From assembly GCA_002282555.1 (NCBI GenBank), contig NCJR01000031.1, forward strand, positions 1-14,462: a stretch of DNA of 14,462 nucleotides, given 5' to 3'. Source of the stretch: Rhodobacterales bacterium 34-62-10. GTDB lineage: Bacteria > Pseudomonadota > Alphaproteobacteria > Rhodobacterales > Rhodobacteraceae. The notes beneath the pieces were generated by a model. It saw only the letters and a program-made list of their open reading frames with translations. It was not told the origin of the DNA and searched no databases. Below are positions 5,315-12,877 of the stretch, one piece after another. Both the position numbers and the translations under genes were made by a program. Within the stretch, counting starts at the first letter, position 1. Every line of letters begins with the position of its first letter.

Positions 5315-6516
5315 CAGGCCACCCCCTGCGCGCGGGGCAGGTGACGGTCCAGCTCGGCGATCTGATCCGGCGTCAGCACCGTCTCGATCGGTGTGAGGCC
5401 GTCATAGCGGCTGGCGGTCAGGCCATGTGCCGGGTCACCCCGCAGTGCGGCCCAGCGCGCCTCGTCCAGCAGGGCTTTGGCGGCGGCGGCGCGTCCTGCC
5501 TCGGTCGCGACACCATCGGGACGCGCCATGCCTTCGCGGGCCAGCAGCGCCATGGTGAAGGGCTCATGGATCGGTTGGCCCAAGGCCAGCGCCAAAAGAC
5601 CCTGACGACGATGCACCCGGCGGCGAAAGCGAATTTGCCGCAGCAGCAGCGCAACACCGCCCCGCGCAGGAGCCAGTGCCAGCGACAGAGCAAAAAGTAC
5701 AAAACTGGCCAGCACGATGATCGGTCCGGTCGGCAGCGCCGGGGCGGTGGCGGAGACGGCCGCACCGATATAGGCCGACAGCCCCCCGGCAAGCCCCGCC
5801 AGCGCCACCATCCGCAGGGCGTTATCCGTCCAAAGCCGGGCCGTGACCGCCGGAATGATCAGCAATGCCACGATCAGCACCAGACCCACGGTCGTGATCC
5901 CCAAGACGGTCACGGCCATCACCAGACCCATCATCGCCAGATCGATGCGGGCCACATTGGTGCCAGTGACCGCCGCGAAATCCGAATCAAACCCCACGGC
6001 CAGCATCGGGCGACGCAGCAGCAAAACCGCAAGTAAAACAAGCGCACCGCCCGTCCCGATCACCAGTGCATCACTGCGCAACATCCCGGCTGTCGACCCC
6101 AGAAGGACGGATTCCAGCCCGGCCTGACGGCCTGACTGCATCGATTGGATCACCGTCAGGATAACGATCCCCGCGCCGAAAAATACCGACAAGACGGCGC
6201 CGATAGCTGCATCCTCGGTCAGGCGGGTGCGGCGCAGCATCCAGCCGATCACCAGCAACCCCAGGCCAGAGGACAGCGCCGCCCCCAGCATCAACCCCGG
6301 CAAGAACCGCCCTTCGCCGCCCAGCGCGACCATTGCGATGAAAGCAAGACCAATCCCCGGCAAAGTGGCATGCGATACAGCATCCGAGACAAGTGCGCGC
6401 TTGCGCAGAAACAAGAAACTACCGGTCACGCCGGCAGCGATACCCAGTATGGTGGCACCGATCGCGACAAGTGACGCGTTATATCCCAGTTGCAGCGACA
6501 GCGCCTGCCAGATCAT
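5314..6516 (-). CDS. sitC: Manganese/metal ABC transporter permease with DtxR-like C-terminal extension
   Basis: 400 residues, about 110 longer than a plain ABC-3 permease. Residues 1 to about 290 are the membrane part, with RKRALVSDAVSHATLPGIGL, LTEDAAIGAVLSVFFGAGIV, AAVTGTNVARIDLAMM and the cytosolic-loop region TTVGLVLIVALLIIPAVTAR. Residues 293-400 are soluble and basic at their start. They look like a worn winged-helix plus dimerisation segment of the DtxR/MntR kind: GLLALALGQPIHEPFTMALL, then GMARPDGVATEAGRAAAAKA and DEARW, then LTPIETVLTPDQIAELDRHL. The last piece recalls the DtxR ending AExIEHxLTPE...L. Similar permease-regulator fusions are known among TroC-type proteins. It overlaps sitB by 4 nt (ATGA) and sitD by 1 nt. 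Confidence 0.9.
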   Translation of the reverse strand: MIWQALSLQLGYNASLVAIGATILGIAAGVTGSFLFLRKRALVSDAVSHATLPGIGLAFIAMVALGGEGRFLPGLMLGAALSSGLGLLVIGWMLRRTRLTEDAAIGAVLSVFFGAGIVILTVIQSMQSGRQAGLESVLLGSTAGMLRSDALVIGTGGALVLLAVLLLRRPMLAVGFDSDFAAVTGTNVARIDLAMMGLVMAVTVLGITTVGLVLIVALLIIPAVTARLWTDNALRMVALAGLAGGLSAYIGAAVSATAPALPTGPIIVLASFVLFALSLALAPARGGVALLLRQIRFRRRVHRRQGLLALALGQPIHEPFTMALLAREGMARPDGVATEAGRAAAAKALLDEARWAALRGDPAHGLTASRYDGLTPIETVLTPDQIAELDRHLPRAQGVA

Positions 6517-7340
6517 GACGCCGCATCCGCCGCCTGCATACCTGCTACCTGCGCTTCACCCAACCGACCCCCATAGGCGCGCTGGAGGTTTGAACTTGTG
6601 AACACTTCGGCAACGGGCCCGGCGGCGATGGCACGCATGTTGATCAGGAACATATGCTCGAAATAGGCGCGGATCGTGGAAAGGTCGTGATGCACGGCCA
6701 CGATGGTGCGTCCTTCGGCCCTCAGATCCTTGAGAACCGCGATAATCGCCTTTTCAGTAGCGGCATCGACCCCTGCAAAGGGTTCGTCCAGCAGATAAAG
6801 ATCCGCCGATTGAGCCAGAGCGCGGGCCAGAAAGACGCGCTGTTGTTGTCCGCCGGACAACTGCCCGATCTGGCGGCTGGCAAAATCCTCCATCCCGACA
6901 CGGGCAAGACAGGCACGGGCGCGAGCCAGATGCTCGGGCCGCAACCGGCGCAGCAGGCCCAGTTCGCGGTGCAGCCCCATCAGGACCACATCGATCACGC
7001 AGGCCGGGAAATCCCAGTCCACGCTAGCACGCTGCGGCACATAGGCCACGCGATCGCGCGCACGCGACAGCGGCAAACCGAACAGGCGCACCTCGCCCGA
7101 CAGTGGCTTGACCAATCCCAGAACCGCCTTGAGCAAGGTTGATTTTCCTGCCCCATTGGGGCCGACAATGGCGGTCATCGTGCCTTGCGCCACCGCCATA
7201 TCCACGGAAAACACCACCGGCTTTTCCCCGTAAGCCACGGTCAGCCCCCCCACCTCAAGCGCAGGCGGCGGTGTCGGAGTGGTGGCGACCACACCGTCCG
7301 TGCGCGACACAGCGCGTGGCGAGGAGAGGGGATTCACCAT
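6513..7340 (-). CDS. sitB: Manganese/metal ABC transporter ATP-binding protein
   Basis: 275 residues, a cytoplasmic ATPase subunit that energises the two permeases. Seen in order: Walker A GPNGAGKST (residues 60-68), Q-loop YVPQ (Q103), ABC signature LSGGQQQR (161-168), Walker B LYLLDEP (181-187), D-loop AGVDAATEKA and switch histidine in VAVHHDLS (about 217). The segment QRASVDWDFP after the Q-loop is typical of the Mn/Zn/Fe chelate (SitB/MntB/TroB) branch. All catalytic motifs are intact. The N-terminal ~25 residues before the first strand are proline- and threonine-rich and not part of the fold; a later start is possible. The gene begins 1 nt after the sitA stop and overlaps sitC by 4 nt. 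Confidence 0.94.
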   Translation of the reverse strand: MVNPLSSPRAVSRTDGVVATTPTPPPALEVGGLTVAYGEKPVVFSVDMAVAQGTMTAIVGPNGAGKSTLLKAVLGLVKPLSGEVRLFGLPLSRARDRVAYVPQRASVDWDFPACVIDVVLMGLHRELGLLRRLRPEHLARARACLARVGMEDFASRQIGQLSGGQQQRVFLARALAQSADLYLLDEPFAGVDAATEKAIIAVLKDLRAEGRTIVAVHHDLSTIRAYFEHMFLINMRAIAAGPVAEVFTSSNLQRAYGGRLGEAQVAGMQAADAAS

Positions 7341-7341
7341 G

Positions 7342-8307
7342 TCAGAGCCCCGCGCTCAGCTTGCCGTCCATGCCACGCGCGGGTACGTCACCGCCCAGCG
7401 CGCTGGCGATGGTCGAGATGTTGTGATCCATCATGCCCAGATAAGTCCCCTCATAAGTGCCATCCGGCCCCATCGCGTCCGAGAACACCTCACCGCCGAT
7501 GCGGACCTCATGGCCCTTGGCGGCGGCGCCTTCGATCAAGGCACGGATATTTCGGTCCGAGACCGAGCTTTCCACGAAAACGGCCCCGATCCGGCGTTCA
7601 ACAAGCATATCAACCAGTTCACTAATCCGGTTGAGGCCCGCCTCGGACTCGGTCGAAATGCCCTGAATGCCCATCACCTCGAAACTCTGTGCCCGGCCGA
7701 AATAACCGAATGCATCATGGGCGGTGAGCAAAACGCGCGCCTCTTCTGGCACAGAGGACAAACTGCGCGCCTTGTAGTCGGACAGTCGGGCGAGGTCGGC
7801 CAGATGCGCATCGGCATTGGTGGCGAAAGTAGCGGCGGCATCGGGACGCGCGGTGCTGAGTGTATCGCGCACGGCCAGAACCACATGGCGCCACAGATCG
7901 GGGTCCATCCAGACATGCGGATCAAAGCGGCCTTGATAATCGGGATGCCCGATACGATCCGCTTCGGGGACGGCTTCGCCTACGGCGACAACAGTGCGGG
8001 TACGGCCCAGATCCAGCAGGACATCCTCAAGCTGCGCTTCAAGATAAAGCCCATGCCACAGCACCAGGTCGGCACGGGTCATGGCGACGATGTCGCTGCG
8101 GGTCTGGCGGTAGGAATGAGGGTCGATCCCTGGCCCCATCATCGCAGCGACGGATACAAGATCACCCCCAACCTGTCGTGCGGCATCGGCCACCATTCCG
8201 GTTGTGGCAACGATGGACAAGGGGGGTTGCGCCGCAGCAAGGCGCGGGACAGCGATACCGGCGGCAATGGCCGTCAGGACATGGCGTCGTGTCAGTGTCA
8301 TGGTCAT
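7342..8307 (-). CDS. sitA: Manganese/metal ABC transporter periplasmic substrate-binding protein
   Basis: 321 residues, a cluster A-I (TroA/PsaA/MntA/SitA) binding protein that captures Mn2+ (possibly Fe2+ or Zn2+) in the periplasm. Expected metal ligands can be seen: H64 in GIDPHSY, H131 in FDPHVWMDP, a glutamate in GISTESEAG (E220 or E222) and D277 in FSDAMG. There is no histidine-rich loop of the ZnuA kind, which favours Mn over Zn. The leader LTRRHVLTAIAAGIAVP... ends in RLAAA and contains an RR pair, so it may use Sec or Tat export. AAAGGTG lies 6 nt before ATG 8307, which fixes the start. It is the first gene of the operon and follows a promoter with two Fur-family operators. Confidence 0.94.
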   Translation of the reverse strand: MTMTLTRRHVLTAIAAGIAVPRLAAAQPPLSIVATTGMVADAARQVGGDLVSVAAMMGPGIDPHSYRQTRSDIVAMTRADLVLWHGLYLEAQLEDVLLDLGRTRTVVAVGEAVPEADRIGHPDYQGRFDPHVWMDPDLWRHVVLAVRDTLSTARPDAAATFATNADAHLADLARLSDYKARSLSSVPEEARVLLTAHDAFGYFGRAQSFEVMGIQGISTESEAGLNRISELVDMLVERRIGAVFVESSVSDRNIRALIEGAAAKGHEVRIGGEVFSDAMGPDGTYEGTYLGMMDHNISTIASALGGDVPARGMDGKLSAGL

Positions 8308-8356
8308 GCGGTCACCTTTTGAACAGAAGACGTGAAAACAGCGCTAAGTGGACTTA

Positions 8357-8385
8357 ATATTGAGAACGGTTCGCAACTTTGTCAA
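8357..8385 (-). promoter_or_regulatory. Candidate sigma70 promoter of sitABCD
   Basis: On the minus strand a perfect -35 hexamer TTGACA (8385-8380) is followed after 17 nt by CAATAT (8362-8357), a weak -10; TATTAA a few bases further is another possibility. The predicted transcript would start about 45 nt before ATG 8307. The imperfect Fur-family operator (8360-8376) fills the spacer between -35 and -10, and the perfect one lies just upstream of -35, which fits repression when metal is abundant. The position is a prediction from sequence only. Confidence 0.5.
8360..8376. promoter_or_regulatory. Fur-family (Mur-like) operator, imperfect copy
   Basis: TTGAGAACGGTTCGCAA is an 8-1-8 inverted repeat with one mismatched pair (7 of 8 pair). 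Its right arm GTTCGCAA matches the neighbouring perfect site ATTCGCAA in seven of eight bases. It starts 31 bp from that site, about three helical turns, so both would face the same side of the DNA. It overlaps the predicted sitA promoter spacer. Confidence 0.6.
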
Positions 8386-8390
8386 TAAAA

Positions 8391-8407
8391 TTGCGAATTA
8401 TTCGCAA
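8391..8407. promoter_or_regulatory. Fur-family (Mur-like) operator, perfect palindrome
   Basis: TTGCGAATTATTCGCAA is a perfect 8-1-8 palindrome. The architecture and the TGCrAAT-N-ATTyGCA core are those of Fur-superfamily boxes. In alphaproteobacteria the Fur-like protein Mur is the known manganese-responsive repressor of sit/mnt genes, so Mur is the best candidate. It lies 84-100 bp before sitA and about 90 bp before the divergent deoC, so it may affect both. The exact regulator is inferred. Confidence 0.75.
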
Positions 8408-8496
8408 AACAAAACGGCGTGACCTCGATATTTCGGCACGCTTGCCTCTGATCCGGGCGCATGCGACCTTGCCGGGACACCGAAGCAGAGTGTGAC

Positions 8497-9495: not shown

Positions 9496-9537
9496 TGTCA
9501 GGCGGGCGGATTTGAGTATTTGGGGAACGATGAAGGC

Positions 9538-12159
9538 ATGAGCGTCAAGGATATCTTCGACACGATGGACTATGGCACGGCCCCTGAGCAGGCGGCAGAT
9601 GCGCTGGCATGGCTGGTGGATCAGGGAGATCGGTTCGGCCATTTCATCAACGGTGCTTTTACCGTCCCCGGCGATGGGTTTGAGGCGCGCAATCCGGCCA
9701 CGGGCGAGGTGCTGGCCACGCTGAGCCAAGCGACACAGACGGATGTGGATGCGGCAGTAAGTGCGGCACGGCGCGCGCAAGCCAAGTGGGAGGGGCTGGG
9801 AGGGCATGGCCGCGCCCGGCATCTTTATGCGCTGGCGCGGATGGTGCAGAAACATGCGCGGCTGTTTGCGGTGCTGGAGGTGCTGGACAACGGCAAGCCG
9901 ATCCGTGAGGCGCGCGACATCGACATCCCGCTGGTCCACCGGCATTTTTATTTCCACGCGGGTCTGGCGCAGTTGATGGAGACCGAGCAACCAGATCGTC
10001 AGGCATTGGGTGTCTGCGGGCAGATCATCCCGTGGAATTTTCCGCTGCTGATGCTGGCGTGGAAGGTGGCACCGGCGCTGGCGGCAGGCAATACCGTGGT
10101 GCTGAAACCGGCCGAGCAGACATCACTGACAGCGCTGCTGTTTGCCGATATTTGCCGTCAGGTGGGGCTGCCCAAGGGTGTCGTGAACATCGTGACCGGC
10201 GATGGCGCGGTGGGCGAGATGATCGTAGCCCATCCCGGCATCGACAAGATCGCCTTCACCGGATCAACCGAAGTGGGTCGTCGTATCCGACAGGCGACAG
10301 CGGGCAGCGGCAAGGCCCTGACATTGGAGTTAGGGGGCAAATCCCCCTATATCGTGTTCGAGGATGCCGATCTGGATTCGGCTGTCGAAGGCTTGGTGGA
10401 CGCGATCTGGTTCAATCAGGGGCAGGTCTGTTGCGCAGGGTCGCGGCTTCTGGTGCAGGAAGGGGTGGCGGAGCGTTTCCATGCCAAGCTGCGGGCGCGA
10501 ATGGACAAGCTGCGCATCGGCAATCCCTTGGACAAGAGCGTAGACATCGGCGCGATGATCAGCCCCGCGCATCTGGAGCGTGTGCGCACCATGGTGGATG
10601 CCTGCGACAGCGGGCAGATATACCGGAGTGCGGCGGCGCTGCCCGAGGGCGGGTGTTTCTATCCGCCGACGCTGATCACCGGTCTGTCCACCGCATCCCC
10701 GCTGATGCAGGAGGAGATTTTCGGGCCCGTTCTGGTCTCAACCACCTTCCGCACGCCGGTTGAAGCGGTCGATCTGGCCAACAACACCCGTTACGGTCTG
10801 GCGGCGAGTGTCTGGTCCGAAAACCTGAACCTTGCGCTGGACGTGGCACCGAAACTGGCCGCCGGAGTCATCTGGGTAAACGGAAGCAACATGTTTGATG
10901 CTGCCGCGCCTTTTGGCGGGATGCGGGACAGCGGATTTGGCCGCGAAGGAGGCTGGGAAGGACTGAGCGCCTATACCCGGCCACGCGGCAAATCCAGGCC
11001 TCTGCCACGGACAGTACCTTTCGGAGGCAGCAACGGTGACACGATGGACACCAGGATCAACCGCACACCCAAGCTTTTCATCGCGGGCAAGCAGACGCGC
11101 CCCGATGCAGGATACAGCCGCAATGTGCACAACAAGTCAGGTCGGATCCTTGGACAAGTCCCCATGTCCAACCGCAAGGACATCCGCAACGCTGTCGAAG
11201 CGGCTAGGGGCGCGGCGGGGTGGTCCGCAACGACAGGGCACTTGAGGGCGCAGATCCTATATTATATTGCGGAAAATCTGTGCGCCCGGGCCACTGGTTT
11301 CGCCGCAACCCTTGATGCGATGCAAGGCGGCAAGTCGGGCAAAATCGAGGTGGAGGCCGCGATCCGCCGCCTGTTCACCTATGCGGCATGGGCTGACAAA
11401 TACGATGGTCGCATCAAGGGCGTGCCTTTGCGCGGCGTTGCCATGGCCATGCCCACCCCTCTCGGCGTGATTGGAGCGATCTGCCCGGATGAGGCACCGC
11501 TACTGGGCCTAGTATCGCTGATGGCCCCGGCCATGGCGATGGGTAACCGTACGGTTCTTGTGGCATCCGAGGCGTTCCCGCTGGCCGCAACAGACTTCTA
11601 TCAAGTCCTTGAAACGTCAGACGTGCCCGGCGGTGTGGTCAATATCCTGACCGGCAGCCACGCAGACCTTGCCCCCGTGCTGGCGGCCCATGCCGATGTG
11701 GATGCAGTCTGGTGCTTCTCTTCGTCCCCACTGTCCGGCGAGATCGAGGCGGCGAGCACCGGAAACCTCAAGCGGACATGGGTGAATGACGCAATAGCGC
11801 GCGATTTGTTCGGGGTTGCAGGCGACACCAACATATGCGGCCAGACCATTCTTCCAAAGGACAGGCTGGCATCGGCGCGAGCGCGTAGCGCGGGGTCAAT
11901 GCCGTCCGCGCCGCCGATGATCAATGCCAGATCTGCACGTCCTGCGTCGCGCCAGCCAGCCAGTGTTTCCGCGAATTCGGGAGAGGACATCACCGATCCC
12001 CGTTCGTCCAGAGTACAGACCAGCGCGCCACTGGGAATCACACGCTCCAGCAGCGCAGCCTCGGCTGCCATGCCGCCGCCTTTCTTGTCCTCAACCTCGT
12101 GCACCTGCACGGGGCCAAGACCAAGGGCACGCCCGCTGCGTTCAAGCCGGGTAAGATAA
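9538..12159 (+). CDS. Tandem-domain aldehyde dehydrogenase (ALDH16-type), C-terminus lost and replaced by antisense rlmH readthrough
   Basis: NAD-dependent aldehyde oxidation, probably acetaldehyde from DeoC. Residues about 30-490 form a complete ALDH domain with N167 in IIPWNFPL, E264 in LELGGKSPY and catalytic C298 in [27 protein letters not shown] follows. From about residue 503 ([12 protein letters not shown]) a second, partial ALDH domain without a catalytic cysteine runs to [19 protein letters not shown]. This is the ALDH16 architecture, known in bacteria such as Loktanella. True homology ends near residue 761 (base 11820). ALDH16 proteins normally go on about 25-30 residues to an ending like VKNIWVPYGE. 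Here the frame instead runs 112 residues through the antisense of rlmH to a stop at 12159, a low-complexity R/S/P-rich tail. The ATG at 9538 (GGGGA upstream) is preferred to the TTG at 9520. The protein is probably altered or unstable. Confidence 0.9.
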
Positions 12160-12224
12160 TCGTCGATCAAGGTCCGCTCCGGGCCGGTCCGCAACCGGCC
12201 CACGGCGCAAATATGGACCCGCAT
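11601..12224 (-). pseudogene. rlmH: 23S rRNA (pseudouridine1915-N3)-methyltransferase RlmH, C-terminus lost
   Basis: RlmH is a small SPOUT methyltransferase of about 155 residues that makes m3-pseudouridine 1915 in 23S rRNA. Residues 1-133 are normal: [45 protein letters not shown] and [12 protein letters not shown]. Then homology stops at base 11826. The usual end, which carries the last helix of the trefoil knot and a tail like LYRA...PYHRE, is missing. The frame continues 74 residues through the antisense of the ALDH gene to 11601. Loss of the C-terminal knot helix and tail should remove activity, so I call it a probable pseudogene. Its start shares one base with the rsfS stop (TGATG), the usual rsfS-rlmH coupling. 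Confidence 0.85.
11815..11828. other. Deletion or join point between convergent ALDH16 and rlmH genes
   Basis: On the left, plus-strand codons still read as ALDH16 up to about 11820. On the right, minus-strand codons read as RlmH down to 11826. The two genes point at each other and both lack their 3' ends. A single breakpoint here explains both losses. No insertion sequence or long direct repeat is visible at the point. It could be a real deletion or an assembly misjoin. Confidence 0.8.
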
Positions 12225-12601
12225 CAGACTGTCGTGGAGACCGCGGGCTTCGTGGTACCGCTGGGCATCCACATCTTTTCAAGCTGATAAAAATCGCGCA
12301 CTTCTGGGCGGAAGACATGGACGATCACATCGCCCGTATCGATCAGCACCCAATCGCCGGTTTCCTTGCCTTCGATCCGGCTCAGGCGCCCGTAAGTCTG
12401 CTTAAGATCATCTACCAGCTTTTCGGCGATCGCCGACACCTGACGCGACGACCGGCCCGAACAGATTACCATGTAGTCGCCGATGGCCGTCTTGCCGCGC
12501 AGGTCGATCTGCACGATCTCTTCGGCCTTGTCGTCTTCAAGCTGGTTGAGGATATGGGCCAGAAGCTCTTCGCTTGTGACATGTGTCGGGGCGGCGGTCA
12601 T
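12224..12601 (-). CDS. rsfS: Ribosome silencing factor RsfS (RsfA/Iojap family)
   Basis: 125 residues from ATG 12601. RsfS binds ribosomal protein L14 on the 50S subunit and blocks joining with the 30S when nutrients are low. The DUF143/Iojap fold is clear: LEDDKAEEIVQIDLRGKT, IGDYMVICSGRSSRQVSAIA, KETGDWVLIDTGDVIVHVF and FYQLEKMW. An in-frame ATG at 12697 would add 32 residues with no family look and lies right at the predicted transcription start. The 12601 ATG overlaps (ATGA) the stop of an 18-codon ORF that has an AAGGAGG ribosome site, which suggests coupled initiation. The start is therefore uncertain but 12601 is preferred. It is followed by rlmH with a one-base overlap. Confidence 0.93.
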   Translation of the reverse strand: MTAAPTHVTSEELLAHILNQLEDDKAEEIVQIDLRGKTAIGDYMVICSGRSSRQVSAIAEKLVDDLKQTYGRLSRIEGKETGDWVLIDTGDVIVHVFRPEVRDFYQLEKMWMPSGTTKPAVSTTV

Positions 12602-12654
12602 CGTTGCACCGACAGGCGCGGCAGACGCCGCTGCGAAATTGAGTGACAGGACAT
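12598..12654 (-). CDS. Possible 18-residue leader peptide coupled to rsfS
   Basis: A short ORF (MSCHSISQRRLPRLSVQR) with AAGGAGG 3 nt before its ATG. Its stop overlaps the preferred rsfS start as ATGA. It is arginine-rich with no run of one codon that would suggest attenuation. Alternatively the ribosome site serves a non-ATG start (CTG, 8 nt away) in the rsfS frame. No homology is recognised. Confidence 0.35.
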   Translation of the reverse strand: MSCHSISQRRLPRLSVQR

Positions 12655-12703
12655 TGTCCTCCTTGTGGCACGCCGACAGGGCCCCGGCGCTGGGCATGCG
12701 TCA

Positions 12704-12732: not shown

Positions 12733-12877
12733 TGCGCGGCGCATGCCCTCTGCACCCCTGCGCCATCCGAGTCAATCTATTGCAGCTGTGGTTTGTTCCC
12801 GGTGTTCGTCTTTCGGCAGGTGCAAGCCGCCGTCGCGGGCCTTGATAGACTCGGTCAGGCATAGTATCTGCCTCGCC

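Follow-up and report, generated by a model that had tools for sequence, protein, structure and literature searches.

A blunt junction that truncates the convergent ALDH16 and rlmH genes of a draft genome is probably an assembly join

The window analyzed here, a stretch of 14,462 bp, is the whole of contig C377 of the draft genome G000 (542 contigs, 2.66 Mb, 72% complete), the lineage of which is Paracoccaceae-like. Two convergent genes meet in the window at a junction between bases 11825 and 11826. On the plus strand, an ALDH16-type two-domain aldehyde dehydrogenase gene occupies 9535..11825 and is truncated, lacking approximately 20 C-terminal residues and its native stop codon. On the minus strand, the first 133 codons of rlmH occupy 11826..12224, and the last 23 codons and the stop codon are missing. 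Directly upstream of rlmH lies the intact gene of the ribosome silencing factor RsfS (rsfS; 12224..12697, minus strand; PF02410, TIGR00090), the stop codon of which, as read from the sequence, overlaps the rlmH start. Six genomes of the same genus (G001 to G006), referred to as the sisters, served for comparison.

The Pfam family SPOUT_MTase (PF02590) matches bases 12224-11826 of the minus strand over profile positions 1-133 of 154 with 98.4 bits, and the RlmH equivalog model NF000988 matches with 210 bits (cut-off 199). Among 60 other genomes searched, 52 have a SPOUT_MTase match, and all 52 matches reach position 154; the RlmH in the window falls short of this full length. By aligning P0001, an intact public RlmH of 156 aa, to 1ns5, we located the equivalents of E. 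coli residues E138, R142, Y152, H153, and R154 in the missing tail. According to Koh et al., 2017 (PMC5430550), E. coli RlmH mutants at E138, Y152, H153, and R154 are inactive and R142A is impaired, which bears out the claim of an earlier sequence-only reading that RlmH needs its C-terminal tail. Because the tail with residues essential in E. coli RlmH is gone, the protein as drawn is expected to be dead, and an RlmH without this tail should be inactive.

For ALDH16, 6mvr_A matches residues 2-751 of the query, placing the protein among the two-domain ALDH16 enzymes, and the native C-terminal tail is missing after base 11825. The window protein is 85-87% identical to ALDH16 of G001, G002, G004, and G006, and 93% identical to the intact protein P0121. 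Every one of 210 anchored ALDH16 tails, drawn from 357 collected proteins of which 120 are RlmH matches, has a tryptophan (208 show the common form); it is absent from 11790-11825 of the window. Near the junction, in a stretch chosen after looking, 5 of approximately 13 residues are different from those of P0121, whereas the overall difference is 7%. The last 21 ALDH16 codons show 5 differences from the sisters, which is not exceptional beside the 1-10 of other blocks. The changed residues before the junction could have drifted once the gene was truncated, or they could be errors at the end of a contig. We also sought a tail from the same species, and the best ALDH16 tail match among the 120 listed is 84% identical over 71% of the query. 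A review (PMC8160307) states that a C-terminal extension may serve regulation in ALDH16. The effect of tail loss on ALDH16 is less certain than that on RlmH.

The homology of ALDH16 ends at base 11825 and that of RlmH at base 11826. Beyond the junction, the ALDH16 frame passes through rlmH for 111 antisense codons to a chance stop at 12159 (extension 11826..12159, plus strand), and the RlmH frame passes through ALDH16 for 74 antisense codons to a chance stop at 11601 (extension 11601..11825, minus strand), so that the two frames overlap by 559 bp. The sequence-only reading had described this arrangement, with both homologies stopping at or near the junction and each frame continuing in the antisense of the other, and the profile match and DNA alignment confirm its coordinates and frames. 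When the window DNA is aligned to G002 or G004, the break falls exactly at 11825|11826, and the two pieces abut without an intervening base. Against G006 and G001, the ALDH16 piece ends at 11810 and 11789, respectively, and the rlmH piece begins at base 11826 against all four of these sisters.

Both frames being open through the overlap, one might suppose a functional overlap or fusion, in which ALDH16 and RlmH evolved new antisense-encoded tails. We consider this almost wholly improbable, since RlmH loses catalytic residues and the antisense frames are open in most of the intact sisters as well. In three of the four intact sisters, the antisense frame of rlmH into which ALDH16 runs stays open for the same 110 codons, and in G002 for 3; the open lengths of the antisense frame of ALDH16 into which rlmH runs are 75, 75, 55, and 12 codons. 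No homologue of either tail appeared among the listed matches. Three homologue searches each scored 8,000 candidates, and the extension is carried by none of the 120 best matches listed for RlmH (of 6,040), for the ALDH16 C-terminal region (of 4,262), or for the ALDH16 C-terminal piece (of 6,295). The highest query coverage among each 120 was 64%, 46%, and 74%, respectively, approximately that of the homologous part alone. A search of a plasmid collection gave only distant matches, and a scan of genome_contigs for the pattern of the junction gave 0 matches. As a control, our statistics on antisense open frames are rough: start points were drawn at random within large open frames, and not all of these frames are real genes. 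The antisense extensions are unremarkable, and their length follows from base composition and codon structure.

In four of the six sisters (G001, G002, G004, and G006), ALDH16 and rlmH are intact convergent neighbors, and their stop codons lie 17, 3, 3, and 2 bp apart, respectively. All four loci hold extra DNA at the position of the junction, amounting to 139 bp in G002 and G004 and, by coordinates, to 138 bp in G006 and 153 bp in G001. Because every sister that holds the locus carries extra DNA there, the join is more than chance. These intact loci also support the earlier claim that one junction takes away both 3' ends. Since the stops are only 2-17 bp apart in the sisters, only two gene ends are missing in the window. 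The loss of whole genes between ALDH16 and rlmH, for which envC and ctpA had been suggested, is thereby ruled out, as the close spacing is seen in 4/4 sister loci. It had further been allowed that close relatives might have the same ends together with a functional RlmH. Comparison of gene order and closest relatives returned intact convergent ends, and a relative with the same truncated ends was not seen among the genomes and matches compared.

In the other two sisters, G003 and G005, none of rlmH, rsfS, and the junction DNA stretch had a match, and neither ALDH16 nor leuC had a close one. We considered whether they represent natural losses of rlmH, and we regard them as uninformative on rlmH, since rsfS, ALDH16, and a close leuC are absent as well. 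G003 is rated 97% complete despite its lack of an rlmH or rsfS match. Its contig L202 runs past genes matching window positions 6500-8413 (znu-type by eye) into other sequence.

On the far side of rsfS, we notice a second difference from the sisters. In G002, rsfS and leuC are separated by a frame of 422 residues for an MscS-type channel; G001 and G006 have counterparts of this frame, which is absent at window positions 12777-12832. An mscS-type gene occurs near rlmH in 7 of 30 family loci and leuC takes that place in 5 of 30, within loci reaching only approximately 1.5 kb out. The 1.39-kb difference at 12777|12832 was considered as a second artefact and set aside, as it starts at the end of this variably present gene; it looks like gene presence or absence.

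The dN/dS values of the window against the sisters are 0.03-0.08 for rlmH and 0.07-0.10 for ALDH16, and those among the sisters are 0.065-0.116 and 0.084-0.104, all being rough values since several dS are near or above 1. Both genes are under ordinary purifying selection, with no decay or relaxation visible. Meanwhile, the public protein P0001 is identical to the window RlmH over all 133 shared residues and continues intact to its end. It is encoded on a 2,398-bp contig from the source 'lgn', and the next match among the 120 listed is 90% identical. On this protein comparison, P0001 probably belongs to the same species as the window, and its source may be a different strain. Thus an intact version in near-identical sequence, as an artefact would predict, is found at the protein level.

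A real and recent deletion of approximately 139 bp in one strain would cut both 3' ends in the same way. Under this explanation, a wild strain would have undergone a very recent blunt 139-bp deletion that inactivated RlmH and left ALDH16 with an altered C-terminus, an unrelated tail, and its ribosomes would lack m3-pseudouridine 1915. We hold this to be unlikely, although several observations fit it. The junction contains no N and sits in a 14.4-kb contig that is otherwise collinear with G002, apart from the missing mscS-type gene at 12777|12832, and the conserved ALDH16 tryptophan beside the junction is changed. The Keio collection includes an E. coli strain with rlmH deleted, which was put to use in PMC7056703; a natural rlmH-null strain, if the deletion were true, would for this reason be of modest interest. 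Moreover, a profile search found no second rlmH in G000, and a pattern search allowing up to 3 mismatches found no copy of the lost RlmH tail there. Of 69 contigs fetched from G000, 20, all the fetched ones under 3,000 bases, read as N. The absence of an intact tail in G000 is weak evidence because of these 20 contigs, and the searches may have passed over a complete copy on some short contig. A real deletion is disfavored by the intact and identical P0001, by dN/dS values that show no decay, and by the further suspicious joins of this assembly.

The DNA could also have been deleted before assembly by chimerism in the library or during amplification, for example multiple displacement amplification. 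In PMC1855051, the segments joined by such chimeras are mostly separated by less than 10 kb, and short stretches of complementarity usually mark the joins. However, the same source counts 85% of chimeras as inversions and direct joins within 10 kb as rare (11/475), and gives short complementarity in more than 90% of near chimeras, none being clear at our junction. We therefore regard chimerism as very improbable.

The state of the assembly bears on both possibilities. N runs of 10 and 27 bases lie inside 2 of the 49 readable fetched G000 contigs, and therefore scaffolding was done. Two further joins look suspicious, each unlike all six sisters, though either may be of natural origin. In contig C389 (locus L167), a blunt deletion at 1639|1640 shifts the frame of a transporter-like gene, so labeled from a reading of the frame, which is intact in G002. 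The missing stretch measures 161 bp in G002, G003, G004, and G006, and coordinates put it at 158-159 bp for G001 and G005. In contig C7 (locus L113), approximately 102 bp stand in two adjacent copies at ~5410-5615 that are 80% alike. Each of them resembles the one copy in G002 and G006 at 81-86%, and the stretch is single in the six sisters by coordinates. The gene is presumably that of a putative histidine-phosphotransferase type protein. The pattern looks as if two contig ends that overlapped, from different strains, had been placed end to end; the duplicate keeps the reading frame open, and it could be a real in-frame duplication.

In order to judge how often such breaks occur, we compared the 69 fetched G000 contigs with parts of G002, to which 7 of them aligned (55 kb). 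This gave 7 breaks, of which 2 are blunt, one of these being the window junction; other breaks lie in L119, L175, and L177. Contig L121 was set aside as a further comparison, since only about a third of it aligned to a sister. Aligning 19 sister loci, mostly around the same places as the compared loci, to G002 gave 3 breaks and none blunt in 97 kb, a length that includes overlapping loci. Outside the window, 1 blunt deletion in 40.7 kb thus stands against 0 in 97 kb, with a probability of ~0.30 in a simple conditional count. The same count with the window included gives 0.13, which is too favorable to an artefact. The rate argument for an artefact is weak. That the fair rate omits the window and that the C7 duplicate is in frame both count somewhat against an artefact and for a real deletion.

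It is the combination of an intact P0001, genes without decay, and the condition of this assembly that leads us to read the junction as most probably an assembly join in which about 139 bp were lost. The convergent ALDH16 (plus strand) and rlmH (minus strand) of the organism would end almost tail to tail, like those of the sisters. During assembly or scaffolding, two contig ends would have been joined, and the ~139 bp between them omitted without Ns. Such an omission would cut both 3' ends on paper, after which each frame would enter the antisense of the other. Our inference is that software, and not an event in the cell, produced the join. Neither an N nor a repeat is found at the junction, which also shows no clear microhomology against the sister sequence and offers no shared k-mer to account for a de Bruijn join; this is not what a de Bruijn misjoin usually leaves behind. 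Regarding the rlmH-null strain proposed from the sequence, the truncation in the drawn sequence stands, and a real loss is not established, given the intact P0001, the purifying selection, and the other suspicious joins.

When a genome is fragmentary, a junction that breaks genes can mimic the natural knock-out of an rRNA methyltransferase as widespread as RlmH, present in the great majority of the other genomes searched. Given the two further suspicious joins, other broken genes in the G000 assembly should be read with care.

The locus can be set beside three known systems. Many apparent bacterial pseudogenes stem from assembly errors, as stated by Cooley and Wright, 2024 (PMC11017572). The case described here resembles those assembly-induced pseudogenes in that genes are broken in an assembly and intact in near-identical sequence. 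Theirs are frameshifts and internal stops, whereas ours is a blunt omission of 139 bp. Compared with RlmH, the 23S rRNA pseudouridine-1915 N3-methyltransferase, the window copy is alike in its first 133 residues, its glycine-rich SAM-binding segment, and its place beside rsfS, and differs by the lack of the last 23 residues. Finally, the dehydrogenase resembles PDB entry 6mvr, which we take to be ALDH16 of Loktanella sp. The two share the same two-domain ALDH16 architecture over nearly the whole length, and the window protein differs in that approximately 20 C-terminal residues are replaced by the antisense extension.
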